Shown one piece after another: positions 1-10,383 of a DNA stretch of 64,000 nucleotides. Location of the stretch: positions 1-64,000 of the forward strand of contig JAJTGY010000016.1 in assembly GCA_021298015.1 (NCBI GenBank), read 5' to 3'. How positions within the stretch are numbered: the first letter of the stretch is position 1; every line of letters begins with the position of its first letter. This stretch comes from Flammeovirgaceae bacterium (GTDB taxonomy: Bacteria; Bacteroidota; Bacteroidia; Cytophagales; Cyclobacteriaceae). The position numbers and the translations under genes are program-made. The notes beneath the pieces are model-generated. The model had not been told where the DNA came from, made no database searches, and saw only the letters and a list, made by a program, of their open reading frames with translations.

Positions 1-36
1 AACGATCTGGCTCTCGGTAAATTTTGTCTTTTTCAT
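1..36 (-). CDS. IS3-family transposase OrfA, N-terminal 12 codons only
   Basis: The 12 visible residues, MKKTKFTESQIV, match the characteristic N-terminus of IS3-family OrfA proteins, the helix-turn-helix subunit that binds the element ends and is fused to OrfB by frameshifting in the active transposase. A GGGGAG ribosome binding site lies 3 bases before the ATG. The rest of the gene is outside the window, so intactness cannot be judged. Confidence 0.75.
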   Translation of the reverse strand, partial: MKKTKFTESQIV

Positions 37-98
37 TTCTCCCCATTTTAACGATTAAACTACATTTATAATCGCTACTGTTTTTGGGGGAACTTTCA
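1..98 (-). mobile_element. End of an IS3-family insertion sequence (left part outside the window)
   Basis: Read on the minus strand, base 98 starts TGAAAGTTCCCCCAAAAA, which has the 5'-TG and CCCCCAAAAA pattern seen at ends of IS3-family elements. About 60 bases further in, an OrfA-type transposase begins and runs off the window edge. The boundary is supported independently: a coding frame coming from base 290 is conserved-looking up to DFVPY and then meets a TGA made by the first three bases of the element. The other end and the target duplication lie outside the window. The family assignment rests on the OrfA N-terminus; the exact end is inferred. Confidence 0.7.
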
Positions 99-290
99 AT
101 ATGGCACAAAATCGTACTCTGGTTTACTTTGTTTTAACGTAAACAGAAAGAGTAGCTTTTGAAGACGAATTTTATCTAGCTTTCCGTCAAATAGCTGAAG
201 GAGTGCGAGTATTATTTTTCTTCTGTAAACCACGATGCAATCTACAACAATTAAAATGAATATTGAGTTTAGGTGTATGGGTTTTAACAA
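96..290 (-). pseudogene. Gene interrupted by the IS3 element; Panacea-like N-terminal fragment
   Basis: The open frame has a coding-like stretch IILALLQLFDGKLDKIRLQK followed by LLFLFT and ending YDFVPY, where the IS end supplies a TGA. The combination LQKLLFLF...YDFVPY recalls the N-terminus of SocA/Panacea (DUF4065)-type proteins, many of which are antitoxins, but the match is from memory and distant. The missing C-terminal part should lie on the far side of the IS, outside the window. The true start is unclear: an ATG at 290, or a later GTG just before VVYRRK. Inferred to be a gene inactivated by insertion. Confidence 0.5.
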
Positions 291-469
291 AACGCTCTAA
301 TTGCAACTTTAAATTACTCTCGCTGCATCAACTTCAAGCTGAACCGGATTTTTTGAATGAAGCCTTCTTCCCAAGTTGGCTCATCAAGATTTATGATGAA
401 TGCTTGCAGGTCTGGCATGTCCCAAATCTGTGATGCAAGTCAAAACTCAAGGGCGTATTTTTTAATGCC
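291..469. other. Stretch without a supported gene
   Basis: Together with the interrupted gene this is the left border of the PUL. A 34-codon minus-strand frame (418 down to 314, starting MPDLQAFIINLDEP) looks somewhat coding-like and could be a gene remnant, but it is too short to support. No RNA gene or promoter was recognised. Confidence 0.4.
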
Positions 470-503
470 ATGTATTGGCCAGCACCCGTGCGGGCCAATA
501 CAT
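470..503 (-). repeat. Long hairpin just after the PUL's last stop codon
   Basis: An 11-base perfect inverted repeat (470-480 against 493-503, ATGTATTGGCC) encloses a second 4-base stem (GCAC/GTGC), giving a stem of about 15 pairs with a tiny loop. It starts 8 bases after the GH30 stop codon. On the minus strand it is followed by GGCATTAAAAAATACG, so there is no U-run. It may be a 3' mRNA-protecting hairpin, a factor-assisted end of transcription, or a dispersed palindromic repeat. Confidence 0.5.
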
Positions 504-510
504 CAGAAAA

Positions 511-1902
511 TCAATTTTCCATCACCACCGTGCTTAACGAGTGGGCCGGTAGCGTCAACCCAACCGCGCGCTTGACCAAGAGACGGACCTGCGCAGCGGA
601 AGATCGGTCAGTCTGCACGATCACCACCACCTTTCCTTCGGGTGTGCGGAAGGCCACGTGCGGAAGGCTGTCGGGCCCATTGGAATACACCCGCACCGAA
701 CCCGGAGGCACAAACCGCGAAGCGTGCGCAATGATGTAGTATGAAACATTCCGGGTGATGGAATCCCCGATGGTGAGTGCCCCGAGGCAACTGGTGCACC
801 CGCCATCGTCCGTATGCGGACCAAATTCCGGATCGTTGGCCAGGTTCCACTCCAGCACGGTGCGCGCCCAGTTTTGCGTAGTGCCAATCAACACGTGGCG
901 CGCATGCCACTGCAGATCACCGCCAAACTCGCCCTTGGCTGAGGTCCATTGCTCGGTGAAGTAAATGTTTTTGTCCGGGTGGGCTGCGTGAACGTTAGCC
1001 ATCGCGCTTGCTTCGCCTGCATACAAGTGAAACGCTGATCCGTCCACAAATTTTCGGGCTACGGAGTCATTCAAAATGGAGATCGGATATTCGGGATGGT
1101 CGCAGTTGTGGTCGTACACCACGATGCGGGTGGTGATCCGGTTTTTCTGAAAGGCCGGCCCCAGGTTGTTTTTGACAAAAGACGCCTGCTCGCCAGCGGT
1201 CATCAGCATGCTGGGTGTGTTGTGCGGATTCTCCGGCTCGTTTTGCAGCGTAACGGCATGCAGGGTAATGCCCTGCTGTTGCATGGCTGATACGTATCGA
1301 ACAAAGTAATCGGCATAGGCCTGGAAAAATTCTGGTCTGAGGCTGCCGCCTTTCGCCTGGCCGTTCGTCTTCATCCAGGCCGGGGCCGACCACGGGCTGG
1401 CCATTAGGTTCACGTCCGGGCTAAGCGCCCGAATTTCCTTCAGCAACGGAATGAGGTACAACGTGTCGCGGGAGAGATTGAAGTGATCGAGCTGCGGATC
1501 AACTTCACCAGCCGGTAAATCGCAATAGGAAAAAACCTGGTCATCGAGATCGGAGGCGCCCATACTCACCCGCAGGTAACGGATACCTATTCCGTTGCCC
1601 TCTCGGGTGAACAACTCGCGCAGCAAGGCCGCCCGTGCCGCGCTATCCAGTTGATAAATCAGTCGTGCACTGCCACCGGTTAACGTAAAGCCAAAGCCAT
1701 CGATGGATTGGTACCGAACGGCCGTATCCAATTTGATTTCCCAGACGATGGTGTCATCGCTCGGTCTTGATGGTGTTAACTCTTGCTCGGCCAGCAGCCA
1801 TTGCCGGTCGGCTGTGGTGGTGTAGAGTTTAACTTCCCGTGAAGGTTGACAATGACAAAAAAGGCAAAAACCAATTAGTGTGAAAAATCGGACATACGCC
1901 AT
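511..1902 (-). CDS. GH30 family glycoside hydrolase (glucosylceramidase / beta-1,6-glucanase type), lipoprotein
   Basis: A retaining beta-glycosidase of clan GH-A, 463 residues. The catalytic acid/base is Glu222 in LQNEPE and the nucleophile Glu317 in YFTEQW. The TIM barrel (about 60-380) is followed by the small beta domain typical of GH30. The N-terminus ends in a cysteine-rich segment (LFCHC) that fits a lipoprotein signal, so the enzyme is probably anchored to an outer or periplasmic membrane face. It is the last gene of the PUL, 9 bases after the GH3 stop. GH30 members in Bacteroidota PULs commonly cut beta-1,6-glucosidic bonds; that specificity is inferred, since subfamily cannot be fixed by eye. 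Confidence 0.88.
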   Translation of the reverse strand: MAYVRFFTLIGFCLFCHCQPSREVKLYTTTADRQWLLAEQELTPSRPSDDTIVWEIKLDTAVRYQSIDGFGFTLTGGSARLIYQLDSAARAALLRELFTREGNGIGIRYLRVSMGASDLDDQVFSYCDLPAGEVDPQLDHFNLSRDTLYLIPLLKEIRALSPDVNLMASPWSAPAWMKTNGQAKGGSLRPEFFQAYADYFVRYVSAMQQQGITLHAVTLQNEPENPHNTPSMLMTAGEQASFVKNNLGPAFQKNRITTRIVVYDHNCDHPEYPISILNDSVARKFVDGSAFHLYAGEASAMANVHAAHPDKNIYFTEQWTSAKGEFGGDLQWHARHVLIGTTQNWARTVLEWNLANDPEFGPHTDDGGCTSCLGALTIGDSITRNVSYYIIAHASRFVPPGSVRVYSNGPDSLPHVAFRTPEGKVVVIVQTDRSSAAQVRLLVKRAVGLTLPAHSLSTVVMEN

Positions 1903-1911
1903 ACTCTGAGT

Positions 1912-4185
1912 TTACTTCAGAGCAAATTTGGCGGTTTTTACCTCTTGCGAATTCGTGCCGATCTGGATTTCAAAATCGCCCGGCTCTGCTACCCACTTCA
2001 AATCGGCATTGTAAAACGAAAGCGTATGGGCAGAAATCGTAAAGATTACGGTCTTCTTTTCACCGGCCTTGAGGAAAACTTTTTCGAAGCCGCGCAGCTC
2101 TTTCACCGGGCGTGTGATGGAGCCCACCACATCGCGGATGTACAGTTGCACCACCTCTGCGCCATCGCGCGTGCCGGTGTTTGTTACTTCAATGCTGGCG
2201 GTAACCGTGTCGCGTGCCGTCATTTCGGTGGCACTCAGGGTTACATCGCCATAGCTGAAGGTGGTGTAGCTCAAACCAAAGCCAAACGGATACAACGGTT
2301 CATTGGGCACATCCAGATAGTTCGACTGAAATTTGCTGAACCATTTGCCCGTGAGCGGGCGCCCGGTGTTCTTGTGGGCATAGAAAATCGGCACCTGGCC
2401 CAGGTGCTGCGGAAATGTAGTGGTGAGTTTTCCCGAGGGGTTCACCTCTCCAAACAATACATCGGCAATGGCATCGCCCGCTTCACTGCCGCCAAACCAC
2501 ACGTTGAGGATGGCGGGCACTTGCTTGTTTTCGTCCGTGAGTACAAGCGGCCGCCCGGTGAAGAGCACCAACACTACCGGCTTACCGGTGGCGATCAGCG
2601 CCTGCAATAAATCTTTTTGGGTTTGCGGAATCTCGATGTTTACACGACTCGAAGCTTCGCCACTCATTTCAGCCGATTCACCAAGTGCAGCCACGATCAC
2701 ATCCGACTGCCGGGCGAGGCGCACGGCTTCCTCGCGCAAAGCGGCTTCGCTGCGGTTGTCGCGGTTGAGGCCCTTACCAAAAATCGTGGCGTTGGCTTCC
2801 AGCACGGCATCGGCATCAAGATTCGAGCCTTTGGCATACACCACCCGGGCCTGTGTTCCCACCGATTTCTGTAATCCGCTTAACAGCGGAACAGATTCGG
2901 CATGACGCGCGGCCACACTCCACGTGCCCGCCATGTTCACGGCCGTATTCGCCAGCGGGCCCACCAGCGCAATGGTACCCTGCTTCTTCAACGGCAGTAC
3001 GTTGCCTTCGTTGCGCAGCAGCACAAAACTCTGGGCTGCAATTTTTCTGGCCGTAGCCCGGTTGTCGGAAGTAAACACTTCTGTTTTGGCACGCTGTTCA
3101 TTGCAATAGCGGTATGGATCGTCAAACAAACCGAGTTTGAATTTGGCTTCAAGAATTCTGCGGCACGCTTGTGTGACTTGTGCTTCGGTGATTTTGCCTT
3201 CGTCCACCGACTTCTTCAGGGTGGTGAGTAATCCTTCACTCACCATGTCCATGTCGAGGCCGGCTGCGAGTGCTCGGGCCGATACTTCCTGAAGATTACC
3301 AATACCATGGTTAATCATTTCACTCACACCGGTATAGTCGCTCACCACAAAACCGGTGAAGCCCCACTCGGTGCGCAGCAGGTCGGTGAGCAACCATTGA
3401 TTGGCCGTGGCCGGGATGCCGTCAATTTCGTTGAACGAGGCCATCATGCTGCCTGCACCCGCTTCCACAGCCGCTTTGTAAGGCGGCAGATAGTCGTTGT
3501 ACATGCGATGGCGACTCATGTCCACTGTATTGTAATCACGACCCGCGTCAGACGCACCGTAAAGCGCAAAGTGTTTGGGGCAGGACATAATGGTATTGGG
3601 TGCACTGAGATCGGTGCCCTGATAACCGCGCACCATGGCGCGGGCAATTTCACTGGCGAGGTAGGGATCTTCGCCATTGCCTTCGGAGATCCGACCCCAG
3701 CGGGGATCGCGGGCGATGTCCACCATGGGCGAGAAGGTCCAGTTGATGCCATCGGCACTGGCCTCCTGCGCAGCCACGCGCGCGCTTTGCTCAATCGCCT
3801 GCATGTCCCACGTGCAACTGAGGCCAAGCGGAATGGGGAACACCGACTCGTAGCCGTGAATCACATCCATGCCAAATAACAACGGAATTTTCAGTCGGCT
3901 TTTCTCCACGGCAATCTGCTGCATCTCGCGAATGGCAGCCACGCCTTTGATATTGAACAATCCGCCCACGCTGCCTTGTTCGATTTTCTTGGCGATGTCC
4001 GAATTCAGCGCCTGGCCGGTAGTGAATTGCCCGGCCGAGGGCAGATTAAGTTGGCCGATTTTTTCTTCGAGCGTCATCACACGCAACAGCGAATCCACTT
4101 TCGCATCCATAGCGGTGGAGGCTGATTTTTTTTCGCAGGCTACGAACGCGCACGCCAGCAAACCAAGAACAAGTAACTTCTTCAT
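1912..4185 (-). CDS. bglX: GH3 beta-glucosidase (BglX type), lipoprotein
   Basis: A 757-residue exo-acting beta-glucosidase expected to release glucose from oligosaccharides made by the neighbouring GH144 and GH30 enzymes. A lipoprotein signal ends at Cys17 (ACAFVAC). The GH3 N-terminal barrel carries KHFALYG near 204 and the nucleophile Asp283 in GFVVSDYTG. The C-terminal alpha/beta sandwich and a terminal fibronectin-III-like domain (about 650-750) complete the usual BglX layout, and the length is normal. The gene starts 8 bases after the GH144 stop, so it is surely cotranscribed. Periplasmic location is inferred from the signal. Confidence 0.92.
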   Translation of the reverse strand: MKKLLVLGLLACAFVACEKKSASTAMDAKVDSLLRVMTLEEKIGQLNLPSAGQFTTGQALNSDIAKKIEQGSVGGLFNIKGVAAIREMQQIAVEKSRLKIPLLFGMDVIHGYESVFPIPLGLSCTWDMQAIEQSARVAAQEASADGINWTFSPMVDIARDPRWGRISEGNGEDPYLASEIARAMVRGYQGTDLSAPNTIMSCPKHFALYGASDAGRDYNTVDMSRHRMYNDYLPPYKAAVEAGAGSMMASFNEIDGIPATANQWLLTDLLRTEWGFTGFVVSDYTGVSEMINHGIGNLQEVSARALAAGLDMDMVSEGLLTTLKKSVDEGKITEAQVTQACRRILEAKFKLGLFDDPYRYCNEQRAKTEVFTSDNRATARKIAAQSFVLLRNEGNVLPLKKQGTIALVGPLANTAVNMAGTWSVAARHAESVPLLSGLQKSVGTQARVVYAKGSNLDADAVLEANATIFGKGLNRDNRSEAALREEAVRLARQSDVIVAALGESAEMSGEASSRVNIEIPQTQKDLLQALIATGKPVVLVLFTGRPLVLTDENKQVPAILNVWFGGSEAGDAIADVLFGEVNPSGKLTTTFPQHLGQVPIFYAHKNTGRPLTGKWFSKFQSNYLDVPNEPLYPFGFGLSYTTFSYGDVTLSATEMTARDTVTASIEVTNTGTRDGAEVVQLYIRDVVGSITRPVKELRGFEKVFLKAGEKKTVIFTISAHTLSFYNADLKWVAEPGDFEIQIGTNSQEVKTAKFALK

Positions 4186-4193
4186 ACATCAGA

Positions 4194-5531
4194 TCAGTAA
4201 GTAAATCCAAGTTTTGTCAGGCCTTGTTGTACCTCGGGGCACGACATGAACAGCTTCCATAAAAGTCCGCTGCGGTGGTTTTCCATCATCACCACGATCG
4301 GGCCCTGATCAATGGCGAGGTACCACGGCTTCTGCCAATTGAAGTGCTCGCTGAAGCCATCGTAAAAACCGTATTGATCAAAAATCTTCGTGCCGAGGCT
4401 ATCGTAGAAATAGCGCATGGCTGCCTGGCTCTCCTCGGGCGTGTAGGGAAAAGACGACAACGCGGCCGTGGGTGAGATTACGCCTTTGTCTTCGTTCGGA
4501 CTGTGTGCGGCATAAAACTTTATCGAGTAACCGGCCGTGAGGCCCCAACTGTTCGGGCCATAGCCTTTGTACTGGAGTGGATTTTCTACACAGTAGCGGT
4601 AGTTGATGAGCGTGTGATTAACATTATGTTGCCAGTAATCGGCATAGGCATCCTTCAGCTTGCGCGGATCAAGGCCCAGGAATGAATAGTGCGACCAAAA
4701 CAGCGGGCCACCATACTGGGGTGCTCCATTGTGTTTGAGGCTGAGGTGCAAACCGTACTGGCGATGAGCCGTATCGTTGCGGATAGCGCCCTTGCGGGCC
4801 CAGCCTTCGTGGTAGGCTTCGGCCGGAATGCCGTGCGTGGGCGATGCGGCTGCCAGCACATAGGTGATGAGACATTCGTTGTACCCTTCAAGCGGAAAGT
4901 TCATGGCCCACTGTTTGTCGGGCGACCAATGCCAGTACAATACGTTTTTGTTTCCGTTGCGGTACCAATCCCATTCCACCCCGCGCCACAACGCATCGAT
5001 TTTCTGAGCAAGCGCTTGTTCTTCTGCGGTTCCATCTTTGAAATACTGCCGGGCACAGAGCAAGCCTTGTACGAGGTACGCGGTCTCCACCAGATCGCCC
5101 CCGTTATCGTTCGCGCTGAAGGGTTTCACCTTTCCGGTTTCGCCATACATCCAGTGTGGCCAGGCGCCATGGAAGCGGTCCGCTTTCTCCAGCCAGTAGG
5201 TGAGTTTGGTGAGGTGCGCCACGCCTTCTTGGCGCGTGATAAAACCCCGCTCGATGCCCACCAAAATGGCCATGATGCCAAAGCCCGTGCCCCCCGAAGT
5301 GACAACGCTCTTATCGTTATCCGGATAGTCGTTATCGAGGTGAATGCGCTCGCACGCAGCTCCGGATACCGGCTCCGCGCCCTTCCAGAAATACTGAAAG
5401 GTATTTTGCTGCACGAGTGTGAAGAGTGAGTCGTCAGTCAGTGCCCGCGCACCTTCCGGTTTTGAGCCCCCGCAGCCAATCAACCCAACGAATACCACAC
5501 TGATAAAAAGGAAGCTGATGATTTTTCCCAT
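4194..5531 (-). CDS. GH144 family beta-1,2-glucanase-like lipoprotein (short form)
   Basis: 445 residues with a lipoprotein signal ending at Cys20 (VGLIGC). The rest is the glucoamylase-like (PF10091) alpha/alpha barrel that defines GH144, with the signature segments GGTGFGIMA, RFHGAWPHWM, NDNGGDLVETA and DQGPIVVMMENHR. Characterised GH144 enzymes from Chitinophaga and Parabacteroides cut beta-1,2-glucan; the Asp, Asp and Glu of NDNGGDLVE are in the region proposed to be catalytic. It is a clear tandem paralogue of the next gene upstream, but lacks that protein's Ig-like domains. One copy may act endo and the other exo (releasing sophorose); which is which cannot be told from sequence. Confidence 0.85.
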   Translation of the reverse strand: MGKIISFLFISVVFVGLIGCGGSKPEGARALTDDSLFTLVQQNTFQYFWKGAEPVSGAACERIHLDNDYPDNDKSVVTSGGTGFGIMAILVGIERGFITRQEGVAHLTKLTYWLEKADRFHGAWPHWMYGETGKVKPFSANDNGGDLVETAYLVQGLLCARQYFKDGTAEEQALAQKIDALWRGVEWDWYRNGNKNVLYWHWSPDKQWAMNFPLEGYNECLITYVLAAASPTHGIPAEAYHEGWARKGAIRNDTAHRQYGLHLSLKHNGAPQYGGPLFWSHYSFLGLDPRKLKDAYADYWQHNVNHTLINYRYCVENPLQYKGYGPNSWGLTAGYSIKFYAAHSPNEDKGVISPTAALSSFPYTPEESQAAMRYFYDSLGTKIFDQYGFYDGFSEHFNWQKPWYLAIDQGPIVVMMENHRSGLLWKLFMSCPEVQQGLTKLGFTY

Positions 5532-5534
5532 ATC

Positions 5535-7514
5535 TCAAAAATTGAAGCCTAGTTTGGTCAAGCCGCTCTGCACCTCAGGGGCGGACATAAAAAGATCCCA
5601 CAGCAGGCCGGTTCTGTGATTTTCAATCATGACGATAATTGGCCCCTGATCAATCGCCAGATAGGAGGATGCGGTCCAGTTTTGCGTAATGTTGAAAGCG
5701 TCATAGAATCCATAGGTTCCCCAAAGGCGATCGCCCAATGTGTAATAAAAAAACTTTAGTGCCAGCATGGACTCATCGGGTGTATAGGGAAATGACGAGA
5801 GAGCGGCCGTTGGGGAAATAACACCGAGGTCATTGGTGGGTGAGTGTGCCGAATAGCCCATGTGGTTATCGCTGGCCGTCAGGCCCCAGTTATCTCCGCT
5901 ATAACCCACAAATCGTTGCGGGTTTCGAATACAATACTTCCGGTTAATCAGAGAATGGTTGCGGTTTTGGAGGAAGTAATCGGAACACCAGGCATCACCA
6001 AGCCCACGCGGATCGAGCCCCAGAAAAGAATAATGAGCAAAAAACAGCGGCCCTCCGTAAGCGGGGCCCAGGGGCAACTGGATTCCTTCATAAGTATTTC
6101 CATTTCTCATATTCCCATTGCTCGCCCAACCATTATCATACACAGGTTTGGGGATGGTATGCGTGGGTGAAGCCGCTGCCAGCGTATACACAATCAACGA
6201 CTCGTTCCAACCTTTGATTTGCATGTTCATGGTCCACTGCTTATCGGGCGACCAGTGCCAGTATAACGTGTTCTGATTACTACGCCTGAACCAATCCCAT
6301 TCAACCGCCTGCCAAAGTTGGTTGATGCGGTTAATAAAATCCTGTTCGGCCGGCTCAACCGGATTGAGGTACTGACGAAATGTTATGAGGCCTTGAATTA
6401 GAAAAGCAGTCTCGACCAGGTCTGCACCGTTATCATTCGGACTAAAAGGAATCACTTTACCGGTATTCCCATTCATCCAGTGTGGCCAGGCACCATGAAA
6501 ACGATCTGCCGTTTCAAGAAAATCGAGAATACGATCCAATCTTTGAAGGCCCTGGTCACGCGTAATGAAACCTCGTTCTATGCCAACAATCAAAGCCATT
6601 ATGCCAAAGCCAGAACCACCTGCGGTAACTAAATCCCCTGACGTGTTTCTTTCCCGTGCCATACCGCTGGCAGGGTGCGCAAAATCATAGAAGTATTTAA
6701 ACGTTTGTTCTTGAATGAGGGTCAGCAGTTGATCATCACTAACCACAGGAAACTTGGGTGTTAGATCAACTTCTGTATAAAAGTTTCGGGTAAACGTGGT
6801 GTGTACTTCGCTATTGGCGCCCCGTATATCTCCGGATATCCAAAGCTGGTGACGGGACAGGTGGGTGAGTAATTGCGTTGGTTGAATCTTCACGGTAGTA
6901 GTTCCCTGCAGGGTAACCGTGGCAGGGGCAAGGCCGGCCTGCCCGGCAATTCTGAAATAGTCTCCCGTAACAGTTAGCGGATCAAGCGCTTGGGAAAAAG
7001 TGATTTCGACCTGAGTATTTCGCTTTATGTTGATGATAGGATTGGTTGCGAGTAGCTCCTGACCATTAAATTTCAAAGACGTGATGGTTAAATTGGCAGC
7101 AGCTGTTGAAATTGAAATGGTGATTCCGGGAAACACTTCACCACTTCCGCCCGTGAGGGTATTGGATATCTCAATCTGGTATGAATGATTGGCTTTAAGA
7201 TTCGCGGCCGGTTGTGCAGAAATCGTGCGGCCATTGTCCAAAAAAGTGAAAGCCATTGGCACAACAGCACCGCCTGTTTCGCGTAATACAAATGACGAGG
7301 GCACCCGTGCGGCATCGAGAGTGGCGGAAAATGTGGCCACGATGGGTTGATTGGTGGGAGCATTCTCATTTGTGCCCTGTGGTTGCAGGGCATAGGCTCC
7401 TACCCTGATTTGCGACAACTGGAGAACGCTGGTTGTCGGTTGAGGGTTATCTGAGCATCCAGAAACCAAGGTTGCGGATACAACAACAAGTAGTCGAAAA
7501 AATGATTTAATCAT
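5535..7514 (-). CDS. GH144 family beta-1,2-glucanase-like protein with two N-terminal Ig-like domains
   Basis: 659 residues. A lipoprotein signal ends at a Cys in LVSGC near residue 20. Two Ig-like (Big_5 type) domains span about 25-235, each with the 'ATFSATLDAARVPSSF' and 'ITFSQALDPLTVTG' pattern, then a GH144 catalytic domain with RFHGAWPHWM, NDNGADLVETA and DQGPIIVMIENHR. The Ig domains probably hold the enzyme away from the membrane. I start it at the ATG at 7514, since an extended frame opens only with TTG inside a terminator U-run. That terminator immediately precedes the gene, so it probably depends on read-through or its own promoter. Confidence 0.85.
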   Translation of the reverse strand: MIKSFFRLLVVVSATLVSGCSDNPQPTTSVLQLSQIRVGAYALQPQGTNENAPTNQPIVATFSATLDAARVPSSFVLRETGGAVVPMAFTFLDNGRTISAQPAANLKANHSYQIEISNTLTGGSGEVFPGITISISTAAANLTITSLKFNGQELLATNPIINIKRNTQVEITFSQALDPLTVTGDYFRIAGQAGLAPATVTLQGTTTVKIQPTQLLTHLSRHQLWISGDIRGANSEVHTTFTRNFYTEVDLTPKFPVVSDDQLLTLIQEQTFKYFYDFAHPASGMARERNTSGDLVTAGGSGFGIMALIVGIERGFITRDQGLQRLDRILDFLETADRFHGAWPHWMNGNTGKVIPFSPNDNGADLVETAFLIQGLITFRQYLNPVEPAEQDFINRINQLWQAVEWDWFRRSNQNTLYWHWSPDKQWTMNMQIKGWNESLIVYTLAAASPTHTIPKPVYDNGWASNGNMRNGNTYEGIQLPLGPAYGGPLFFAHYSFLGLDPRGLGDAWCSDYFLQNRNHSLINRKYCIRNPQRFVGYSGDNWGLTASDNHMGYSAHSPTNDLGVISPTAALSSFPYTPDESMLALKFFYYTLGDRLWGTYGFYDAFNITQNWTASSYLAIDQGPIIVMIENHRTGLLWDLFMSAPEVQSGLTKLGFNF

Positions 7515-7518
7515 ATTC

Positions 7519-7556
7519 AAAAAAAGGGAGGGCCCGCTTACGCGGCTACCCTCCCT
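7519..7556 (-). terminator. Intrinsic terminator inside the PUL
   Basis: On the minus strand AGGGAGGG (7556-7549) pairs with CCCTCCCT (7532-7525), with an inner CCGC/GCGG stem and a 4-base loop, followed directly by seven Ts (7525-7519). It lies 17 bases after the stop of the LamG lipoprotein gene and just before the GH144 start. Its position fits partial termination that keeps SusC/SusD/LamG expression above the enzyme genes. Confidence 0.88.
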
Positions 7557-7573
7557 GTCAATGAGTCTTACGA

Positions 7574-8827
7574 TTACGGTTTACCGGAGTTGTACATCGC
7601 AGTAACTTCTGCCTGCGTCAATGCTTTATGGTAAACAATCAAGTCATCCATTAAACCGTGGAAATGGTTGGCTCCGGGGGCATCATAGTTACCCCAAGGT
7701 TCATTATCCCAGAGTGTGCCGCCTCGCGAATGCACAAACCCAAGGGCAAGTTCATCGAGAACGTCTGGAGCAGCTCCACGCCAGCTGAGGCCAGTGGCAA
7801 AACGGGGATTTGCATCATTTGGCCAGTTGTCAAAATCCTGCTCTTTGATGCGTTCACCGTTCAAATACACTGTGCCTACCCGGGTAGCCGCATTGTAAAC
7901 AAAGACATAATGAGCCCACTGGTCTTTAATGACTGCGCTCATCCCAGCCGGACGGAAATCCTTGGAGAATGTCCATCCCTGCCAGCCGAGGTTACCTTCA
8001 CCATCGGCCCACATATCTTCGCTAAACTTCCCTGCACCTGCGGAATTGGTGTGCGCATAGGCAGCAGCAAGTTTAAAAGCATTGTAGCTTCCGAAGATCT
8101 CCATCTGAAAACCATTGAACGCCCCTAAGCCAAGAACAAACTGACCTTTTGCAAGCGAAGAATTTGGTCTAACCCAAATACTCAAAGCCCAGCTTCCGTT
8201 ATTCATGAACTGGCTGCCATTGGCATATTCAATAATACTGGTTGTACCATTGAAACTGGCTGCTTTGCCAGCTTCTGCTTTGCGACCGGCCACATACGTG
8301 ATACCTACCGTTCCGTTTGCCTTAGGCGTACGTCCTCCAATGATGTCAGTGGCGTTATCCTCAAATGTAAAATGCGCAAATGCGCCGGGCACCGCAAACG
8401 TTCCCTCTGAAGTGAAATTCCGCTCAATAGCTGCCGTAAGCGTTTTCCCCTCTGTACTCTTCAAGCCTGCGCCAAAGTTCAAGATGAAAAGGCTCCCGGT
8501 GCCGAAGTCACTATTGGGTGCAATGGTTACCTGATTTCCATTTACGGTTATCGTAACGGGCACATTCTGCGAATCGAACTGACGCACCAACGTAATTGCA
8601 CTTGTTGACGCCTGGTCAACAGCAACATTGAACGTAGCGAGAATATCGGACGTAACCCGGATGCCGGTTGCACTGGTCGCTCCATTTAAATCGACCCCGT
8701 TTGCCGTAAGGCTAACCAGCGTTAATGCCGGGGGTTCATCATCGTTACAACCGGTAAACACCGTTACCAGCATCAGCACGGAGGCCGCAAGCCCCGCCAA
8801 CCCCATCATCCATTTTGCTTTTTTCAT
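7574..8827 (-). CDS. Surface glycan-binding lipoprotein with Ig-like and LamG domains (SusE/F position)
   Basis: 417 residues. Lipoprotein signal ending at Cys27 (VFTGC) followed by acidic NDDE, a pattern linked to surface export of Bacteroidota lipoproteins. An Ig-like domain (about 35-135) is followed by a LamG/concanavalin-like domain (about 150-415) with the typical GSWALSIWVRP and MDDLIVYHKALTQAEV segments. By position after SusD it should be the locus's accessory surface glycan-binding protein; no hydrolase motif was seen. Ligand is inferred from the enzymes (beta-glucan). Confidence 0.82.
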   Translation of the reverse strand: MKKAKWMMGLAGLAASVLMLVTVFTGCNDDEPPALTLVSLTANGVDLNGATSATGIRVTSDILATFNVAVDQASTSAITLVRQFDSQNVPVTITVNGNQVTIAPNSDFGTGSLFILNFGAGLKSTEGKTLTAAIERNFTSEGTFAVPGAFAHFTFEDNATDIIGGRTPKANGTVGITYVAGRKAEAGKAASFNGTTSIIEYANGSQFMNNGSWALSIWVRPNSSLAKGQFVLGLGAFNGFQMEIFGSYNAFKLAAAYAHTNSAGAGKFSEDMWADGEGNLGWQGWTFSKDFRPAGMSAVIKDQWAHYVFVYNAATRVGTVYLNGERIKEQDFDNWPNDANPRFATGLSWRGAAPDVLDELALGFVHSRGGTLWDNEPWGNYDAPGANHFHGLMDDLIVYHKALTQAEVTAMYNSGKP

Positions 8828-8874
8828 AGTTTGTAAATTGGTTTTTAGTTAAACATGATTATCACAGTGATCTA

Positions 8875-10383
8875 TTAATTATCCCATCCGGGATTTTGAT
8901 CCAGCTTTCCTTGGGTTAAGTCTATCTCCGTCTGGGGTATGGGCAATAGTTCGTGCTTGCCGGCCACAAAGCCCAAAGGCCCCAGCAAGGCTGAAGCCCT
9001 GCCGGTTCGCACGAGATCCCAGAAGCGGTGCCCCTCAAGCGCCAACTCTACCCTGCGTTCGTGAAGAATGCGATCGCGCAGTTGATCTTTATTGGTTGTT
9101 GTTACATTCGGTAAAATGGAGTTATTCCCCTCGCGAGCCCGCTGCCGCACCCGGTTCAGGTGGGTGTGGGCTTCCGTGGGGCGGTTATCTTCGTTAAGTG
9201 CCTCCGCAGCCATTAACAAGACATCCGAAAAACGAATGAATCTGCGATTGTGACCGAATGACGGAGGAACGCGGTTGCCCGGTGTCCAAACCTTTTGATT
9301 GTAACATTCGATTTCCTCCTGCCCAAACGAATCGGTGGACAAATCCGGTGTAGTACCATCGCCAAGAATGGTTACGCCTTCCAATACTTCGCCAAGAAAA
9401 ATAACGGTCGACTCTAGCCGCGGATCACCCGGTTCGAAGGAATCCCTGAGGTTCTTTGTGGGGCGATTAAAACCCCATCCACGATTAGGTGTACCCCGAA
9501 CGGCCTGCACATTGCCATATTGGTTACCTCCATTAGCAACGCCCTCCTCTCCAAAGGAAGCTACTTCAAAAACGGACTCTATACCATGCTCACCGATAAC
9601 TGCGTGGGCATTATCAAAATCCGGTTCCAGATTATATTCGAGGGAATTGATTACTTCCAGCGCATAGGTGGCCGCCGATGCAAAATCATTTTGCGCAGTA
9701 CTTCGTCTGGTTAAGTAAACCTTTGCCAGCAGGGCGCGGGCCGACCCTTTGGTTGCGCGCCCACGATCGCTTGCCCCATACGCTGATTTCTCGGGTAACA
9801 CGCTTACTGCAAAAAGAAGATCATCAATGATGAGCTGATAGATTTCTTCTCTTGAACTTCGGGGGAGTTGCCCGGTTACTGTTGTCGTGAGCTTTGGCAC
9901 CCCTCCGAAGCCCCGCACCAAGTCGAAATAAAAAAACGCGCGGAGAAACCGGGCCTCGCCCAGGTATCGGTCCTTCAGGGTTCCATCCATTTGAATTGAA
10001 GGAACCTTTTCGATGACCACATTGGCTCTGCGGATGGCCAGGTAAAGTGTATTCCACCAGCGCAAAATGGCGCCTTCTGTTTTGATATGCTGAAAGCGGT
10101 CAAATGGGCCAATCGTGGCAGAGGCATCATCTGGATTGCTGCCTTTGGCGGCATCGTCAGACATGATGTCGAAAATCGGGAACAGCCCGGTGTTGAAGTT
10201 TGGATCGCGCAGCGTGTTGTACACCGCGTTGGTAGCCAGCAAGGCATCAGATGCGGTTGTGGGAAAACTCGCCTGAGTAAGATTACCCTGCGGAGGCTTT
10301 TCCAGAAATTCCTCACAGGAAAAAAACAGCACACCAAGTGTTATCATAGTGGCGCGGAGTAAGCGAGGGCTACATGTGCTCAT
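8875..10383 (-). CDS. susD: SusD/RagB-family outer-membrane glycan-binding lipoprotein
   Basis: 502 residues. SusD proteins form the lid over the SusC channel and capture oligosaccharides at the cell surface. Seen: lipoprotein signal with Cys at FFSCEEFLEKPP, the usual RagB/SusD start; TPR-like helices with EARFLRAFFYFDLVRGFGGVP near 140-165; the C-terminal SusD domain with RFSDVLLMAAEALNE and ERRVELALEGHRFWDLVR; and the closing PIPQTEIDLTQGKLDQNPG. The length is normal. It starts 11 bases after the SusC stop, so the pair is cotranscribed. An internal ATG at 10347 would also leave a signal peptide. Confidence 0.94.
   Translation of the reverse strand: MSTCSPRLLRATMITLGVLFFSCEEFLEKPPQGNLTQASFPTTASDALLATNAVYNTLRDPNFNTGLFPIFDIMSDDAAKGSNPDDASATIGPFDRFQHIKTEGAILRWWNTLYLAIRRANVVIEKVPSIQMDGTLKDRYLGEARFLRAFFYFDLVRGFGGVPKLTTTVTGQLPRSSREEIYQLIIDDLLFAVSVLPEKSAYGASDRGRATKGSARALLAKVYLTRRSTAQNDFASAATYALEVINSLEYNLEPDFDNAHAVIGEHGIESVFEVASFGEEGVANGGNQYGNVQAVRGTPNRGWGFNRPTKNLRDSFEPGDPRLESTVIFLGEVLEGVTILGDGTTPDLSTDSFGQEEIECYNQKVWTPGNRVPPSFGHNRRFIRFSDVLLMAAEALNEDNRPTEAHTHLNRVRQRAREGNNSILPNVTTTNKDQLRDRILHERRVELALEGHRFWDLVRTGRASALLGPLGFVAGKHELLPIPQTEIDLTQGKLDQNPGWDN

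Follow-up and report, generated by a model that had tools for sequence, protein, structure and literature searches.

We analysed a window of 64,000 nucleotides (the whole stretch of DNA examined here) from a Flammeovirgaceae bacterium. The window begins at the end of contig C50 and carries these features around a hairpin at the end of a polysaccharide gene cluster:

1–98, minus strand: terminal part of an IS-like element, including a transposase start, at the contig edge; also found at C24:49–146 and C62:53514–53613
99–233, minus strand: start (45 codons) of a gene with a DUF488-bearing relative, truncated at the IS-like end
451–464, plus strand: 3' half of a terminator-like stem, GGGCGTATTTTTTA; the 5' half is missing in the window
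470–503, minus strand (sense; it folds on the plus strand too): hairpin in the 3' flank of GH30, 15 of 16 columns paired, −19.8 kcal/mol
511–1902, minus strand: GH30 glycoside hydrolase (Pfam Glyco_hydro_30, 3.8e-46), the last gene of the cluster in the transcript direction
1912–10383, minus strand: GH3, two putative glucoamylases, a LamG/Big_5 protein and SusD, the neighbours of GH30 in the polysaccharide cluster

Because the cluster genes between 511 and 10383 all lie on the minus strand, the end of GH30 is also the end of the cluster in the transcript direction. At the contig edge, positions 1–98 matched contig C24 at 98% and positions 1–103 matched C62 at 93%. We read window 1–98 as an IS end because the copy on C24 includes a transposase start (PF01527 HTH_Tnp_1, scoring 23.5 bits where the cut-off is 24.1, over 28 residues only). 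The peptide encoded at 233–99 on the minus strand was identical in 38 of 45 residues to the beginning of a 294-aa protein from the relative G044 (ORF on L074); the DUF488 domain of that protein lies in its later part, beyond the matched 45 residues. The terminator-like stem of window 451–464 is complete in G044 (L067 1486–1515). We found no plasmid match for window positions 1–540.

The first-pass annotation had described a nested hairpin of about 15 pairs at 470–503, and alignment of the arms in the window reproduced these coordinates exactly, with 470–485 and 488–503 pairing in 15 of 16 columns around a 2-nt loop. The outer arms, ATGTATTGGCC (470–480) and GGCCAATACAT (493–503), form a perfect 11-nt match, inside which one A·G mismatch is followed by GCAC/GTGC pairing. 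Folded as RNA, the 34 nt gave 14 pairs, a 4-nt loop and −19.8 kcal/mol, alike on each strand (z ~ −4.2 on either strand; 0 of 200 shuffles matched its stability). With flanks included (66 and 96 nt), z was −3.8 and −3.5, and 1 of 200 shuffles was equally stable. The GH30 stop codon, TGA, occupies 513–511 on the minus strand and is separated from the stem by 7 bases (504–510). The stem thus begins on the eighth base past the stop in the sense strand. The annotation was also right that the stem has no U-run: the tail past it reads GGCATTAAAAAATAC in the sense strand and CAGAAAATC in the plus strand, neither of which contains one, and the sense-direction bases beyond the stem are a run of A.

To place this structure against chance, we counted comparable arm pairs, defined as 16-nt arms with at least 15 pairs and a gap of no more than 20. 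At least one was present in 4 of 400 dinucleotide-shuffled windows. By arm length alone the hairpin is not unique and has peers in its own genome: 464 kb of the genome held 10 perfect inverted repeats with arms of at least 11 and loops of 3–20, the hairpin included. A search of the whole window against Rfam 15 at the gathering score returned 0 matches. The perfect 11-bp dyad might also suggest a double-stranded DNA operator for a dimeric protein. We consider this very improbable, given that the hairpin lies past a gene end and in a single copy, and that its inner second dyad better suits a folded hairpin.

We then compared the hairpin with other stems near stop codons in the same genome. The sample joined the window to 20 stretches of 20 kb (464 kb in all, ~13% of 3.61 Mb) and contained 359 ORFs of at least 120 aa under a simple non-overlap rule, each taken with 70 nt downstream; the analysis was repeated with longer tails. 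One mismatch was allowed in the stem counts, and a stem was called U-tailed if it had at least 4 U at or past its end. Stems of at least 12 pairs occurred within 70 nt of the stop in 10 of 359 ORFs, and nine of these 10 were U-tailed, the exception being the 470–503 hairpin. At a threshold of at least 11 pairs there were 15 such ORFs, three of which had stems without U: the hairpin itself, L105 and L110. The L110 stem belongs to a terminator seen from its reverse side; for the opposing gene this terminator is U-tailed. The L105 stem has 11 pairs and lies ~21 nt past the stop of a minus-strand ORF (5620–6690) in the same genome. The hairpin is thus an outlier among strong stems, and the genome otherwise has ordinary U-tailed terminators.

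These counts bear on whether the hairpin is an intrinsic (Rho-independent) terminator, a class whose prediction in Bacteroides is treated in a portion of PMC7366714. The hairpin shares with intrinsic terminators a strong, stable, GC-topped and GC-rich stem directly past the last gene. It differs from them in having no U-run on either strand, with a run of A downstream in the sense direction instead, and a terminator scan of the window did not list it. Because the U-run is missing from both strands and the other nine strong stems near stops carry U tails, the hairpin is not a normal intrinsic terminator. The candidate fails on sequence, and we regard termination of this type as unlikely.

The first-pass annotation had also raised the possibility of a mobile repeat and had called for a genome search for copies. 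REP/BIME-type palindromic repeats are a known class, and the hairpin resembles them in being a palindrome of ~34 nt outside genes. Its position past a gene, close to an IS end and to a slot of varying genes, would also suit a REP- or MITE-like mobile palindromic repeat. Unlike such repeats, it is single-copy in this genome. A pattern search with the 10-bp arms and any spacer of 4–20 nt found one occurrence, and apart from the segment and its reverse complement, blastn of 440–535 against the genome returned only 12 short, weak matches, none with E better than 0.046. We found no exact copy in 95 other relatives, a set that includes G044 with its altered stem. Across 395 Bacteroidota genomes the real 8-bp arms occurred at 7 sites in 7 genomes (the hairpin's own included), against 31 sites in 27 genomes for the reversed-arm control, which was therefore commoner than the real arms (site totals tallied by eye from the table). 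On copy number and the reversed-arm control the mobile repeat is rejected; barring a large number of copies in unassembled gaps, it is refuted for this assembly, and we leave it almost no probability.

The same arms recur outside this genome. A scan of 84,980 genomes (GTDB) found them at 16 loci, and a search of a viral collection added one contig. Fourteen of these 17 loci lie between ORFs and three lie inside ORFs of at least 80 aa. Each of the 12 hosts examined among the 16 (L049, L055, L059 and L062 were left out) had one copy, which also speaks against a mobile repeat. In 10 of the 16 GTDB loci the hairpin stands 4–18 nt past the stop of the adjacent ORF and has no U-run. These 10 loci amount to ~6 independent places, because three Pseudoalteromonas and three Pseudovibrio loci look orthologous. 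Judged by eye, the adjacent genes encode a peptidoglycan-binding protein (the three Pseudovibrio loci), a small ORF (the three Pseudoalteromonas loci, where the hairpin sits between convergent ORF ends) and, at single loci, a TonB-receptor-like, an M23-peptidase-like, a PrmC-like and one other protein. On the viral contig (L065) we found no convincing ORF end beside the hairpin, and two analyses picked different frames there. We read the recurrence of the arms as a background of post-stop hairpins instead of as a widespread element. It does show that hairpins without a U-run occur directly past stop codons in unrelated bacteria.

A blastn search of window 104–512 against 62 genomes of the genus gave matches in 8, and the hairpin end was common to its own genome and one other of those 62, G044 (97% over window 450–512). 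For G044 the assembly has a completeness of 89% and a contamination of 6%, and the contig stops within GH30. Between the window and G044, 14 of 257 compared GH30 coding bases differ, as do 2 of 61 flanking non-coding bases. Both flank differences fall in the stem (473 and 488) and neither is compensated: pair 473/500 is lost on both strands, and pair 485/488 is lost on the plus strand and becomes G-U on the minus strand. The sense fold of G044 keeps 13 of 14 pairs but is weaker (−15.1 kcal/mol, z −1.8; 10 of 200 shuffles as stable). As weak evidence, from one comparison, these changes would argue against strong selection on the stem. In G007, whose GH30 is 95% identical, the sequence diverges directly past the stop and the hairpin is absent. 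Its 3' flank has another, weaker fold (−15.0 kcal/mol over 70 nt) and an 8-bp palindrome (TGCGGATT/AATCCGCA) 32 nt past the GH30 stop. The hairpin is thus present in two of three close genomes.

We extended the comparison to GH30 orthologs. Of 40 other matches, 29 loci were fetched, and 70 nt of flank was folded for 28 of them, among them G007; L025, with a flank of 7 bases, was left out of the folding, and neither the window row nor the L067 row was used. One of the 28 flanks had a comparable stem without a U-run. This stem (L022, in G015) has 17 pairs, begins 16 nt past the stop and reached −28.4 kcal/mol over 70 nt; its sequence is unrelated to the 470–503 hairpin.

The absence from G007 and the placing of both G044 flank differences in the stem would be expected of a neutral palindrome, that is, a remnant bordering a gene-insertion slot, with a stable fold that arose by accident and no notable role. 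The position 7 bases past a stop codon counts against this, as does the low number of shuffled windows (4 of 400) with such a stem anywhere. We hold a neutral origin to be a serious possibility, with appreciably less than an even chance.

The genes next to the hairpin also differ between G007, G044 and its own genome, which again favours a neutral palindrome. The DNA between a MacB/FtsX-like permease gene and GH30 is not the same in G007 and G044 (the identity of the permease was tested in G044; G007 has the matching end). The slot in G007 contains one unrelated ORF of 305 aa, lipoprotein-like by eye. In G044 it contains genes for a C-5 cytosine methylase, an HNH protein, a ParE-type toxin, the presumed antitoxin of that toxin (without a Pfam match) and a SUKH protein. 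The hairpin's own genome has the truncated gene of the DUF488-bearing kind and the IS-like end at this place, and a search there for the permease neighbour of G007 did not find it. Gene content of the slot varies among close genomes, and the hairpin therefore lies on the edge of a gene-turnover slot.

The G044 slot, on contig C160, also carries a repeat of ~84–106 nt three times (L076 10898–11009, 11536–11639 and 12198–12313). The copies stand between the ParE-type, SUKH and GH30 genes, and two of the three finish with a complete terminator-like stem on the plus strand (TACGCCC...GGGCGTATTTTTT), of which the window keeps the second half only (451–464).

A separate integron-like array was observed in the same genome on contig C85 (L113 3396–8580; about 50395–55579 of C85). 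In it, three attC-like repeats of ~126–137 nt follow the gene for a 362-aa tyrosine integrase. The NCBIfam matches of the integrase (XerA/integron type, XerC, integrase_gron and others) were all under cut-off. One cassette-like interval of the array holds dcm (over cut-off), a 249-aa ORF and vsr (over cut-off). Self-repeats of ~76–182 nt, plus two longer ones, also adjoin integrase genes in L117 (contig C8 of G007) and L119 (contig C1 of G041), and the folded repeat segments of these two loci are long imperfect palindromes with AAC...GTT-like ends. Such repeats were present in three of six integrase regions (L113, L117, L119) and absent in L112, L116 and L118. A search for the integron-integrase family gave no genome over the curated cut-off and also responded in 13 of 14 controls, so this search alone shows no integron.

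The array and the slot raise the reading that integron-like cassettes are taken up at the hairpin, which would act as a recombination site recognised in its folded single-stranded form. In integron attC sites a palindrome is flanked by outer core sites with AAC and GTT ends. Like them, the hairpin is an imperfect palindrome adjoining a slot whose genes vary between relatives; the integrase with its attC-like repeats on another contig and the G044 repeats between slot genes fit as well. Unlike them, it has no AAC...GTT ends, and at 34 nt it is far shorter than the ~126–137-nt repeats of its own genome, to which it has no similarity; the G044 repeats match the window at the 450–469 edge only. 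An attC site is rejected on these grounds, and a recombination site of any such kind would be a long shot. Equally improbable is the proposal that a slot acquiring cassettes lies at the polysaccharide cluster's end and has the stem as its fixed edge, with foreign defence and toxin–antitoxin genes inserting just beyond it and the stem either insulating the GH30 mRNA or serving as the folded target of a recombinase.

The explanation that we tentatively place first, at not quite an even chance, is that 470–503 is an ordinary non-coding stem-loop that would block 3' exonucleases after termination further on. GH30 transcription would run through the hairpin and would most likely terminate further downstream, by Rho or another route. 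Exonucleases acting 3' to 5' would then trim the RNA back as far as the stem, which would block them and set a stable mRNA end just past the GH30 stop codon, presumably to the benefit of the cell. The annotation's proposal that the stem may guard the mRNA end is plausible and still the role that suits it best. The hairpin has the stable stem near a stop codon expected of such a block (z ~ −4.2, with 7 bases between it and the stop of the cluster's last gene). It is not U-tailed in a genome that has U-tailed terminators, and 10 of the 16 GTDB loci with the same arms are likewise post-stop and without a U-run. The genome has a rho gene (659.7 bits against a cut-off of 509.45). Rho-ended transcripts are said, in an excerpt of PMC7815308, to be processed by 3' exonucleases. 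Stem-loop 3' ends that lack U, likened to Rho-dependent 3' ends of E. coli, are described for Streptomyces clavuligerus in part of PMC8269248.

The hairpin thus shares with mRNA-stabilising stem-loops at trimmed Rho-dependent ends a strong post-stop stem, the lack of a U-run and a rho gene. It differs from them in being weaker in G044, the sole relative found to share it. The uncompensated changes in G044, the absence from G007 despite a GH30 that is 95% identical, and the single comparable stem (L022) among 28 ortholog flanks also count against an exonuclease block. We looked downstream for a Rho loading site and observed no clear stretch of C over G (18 C against 15 G over the first 78 nt). 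Partly because a C-rich Rho site is lacking and the G044 stem is weaker, the neutral palindrome is the main rival to the exonuclease block and nearly as likely.

The hairpin on its own changes little. If it does cap the mRNA, it would be another end signal that terminator scans based on U-runs overlook, as happened in this analysis. The map of its surroundings is more useful, showing a variable gene slot that adjoins a conserved sugar cluster and, on another contig, an integron-like array.
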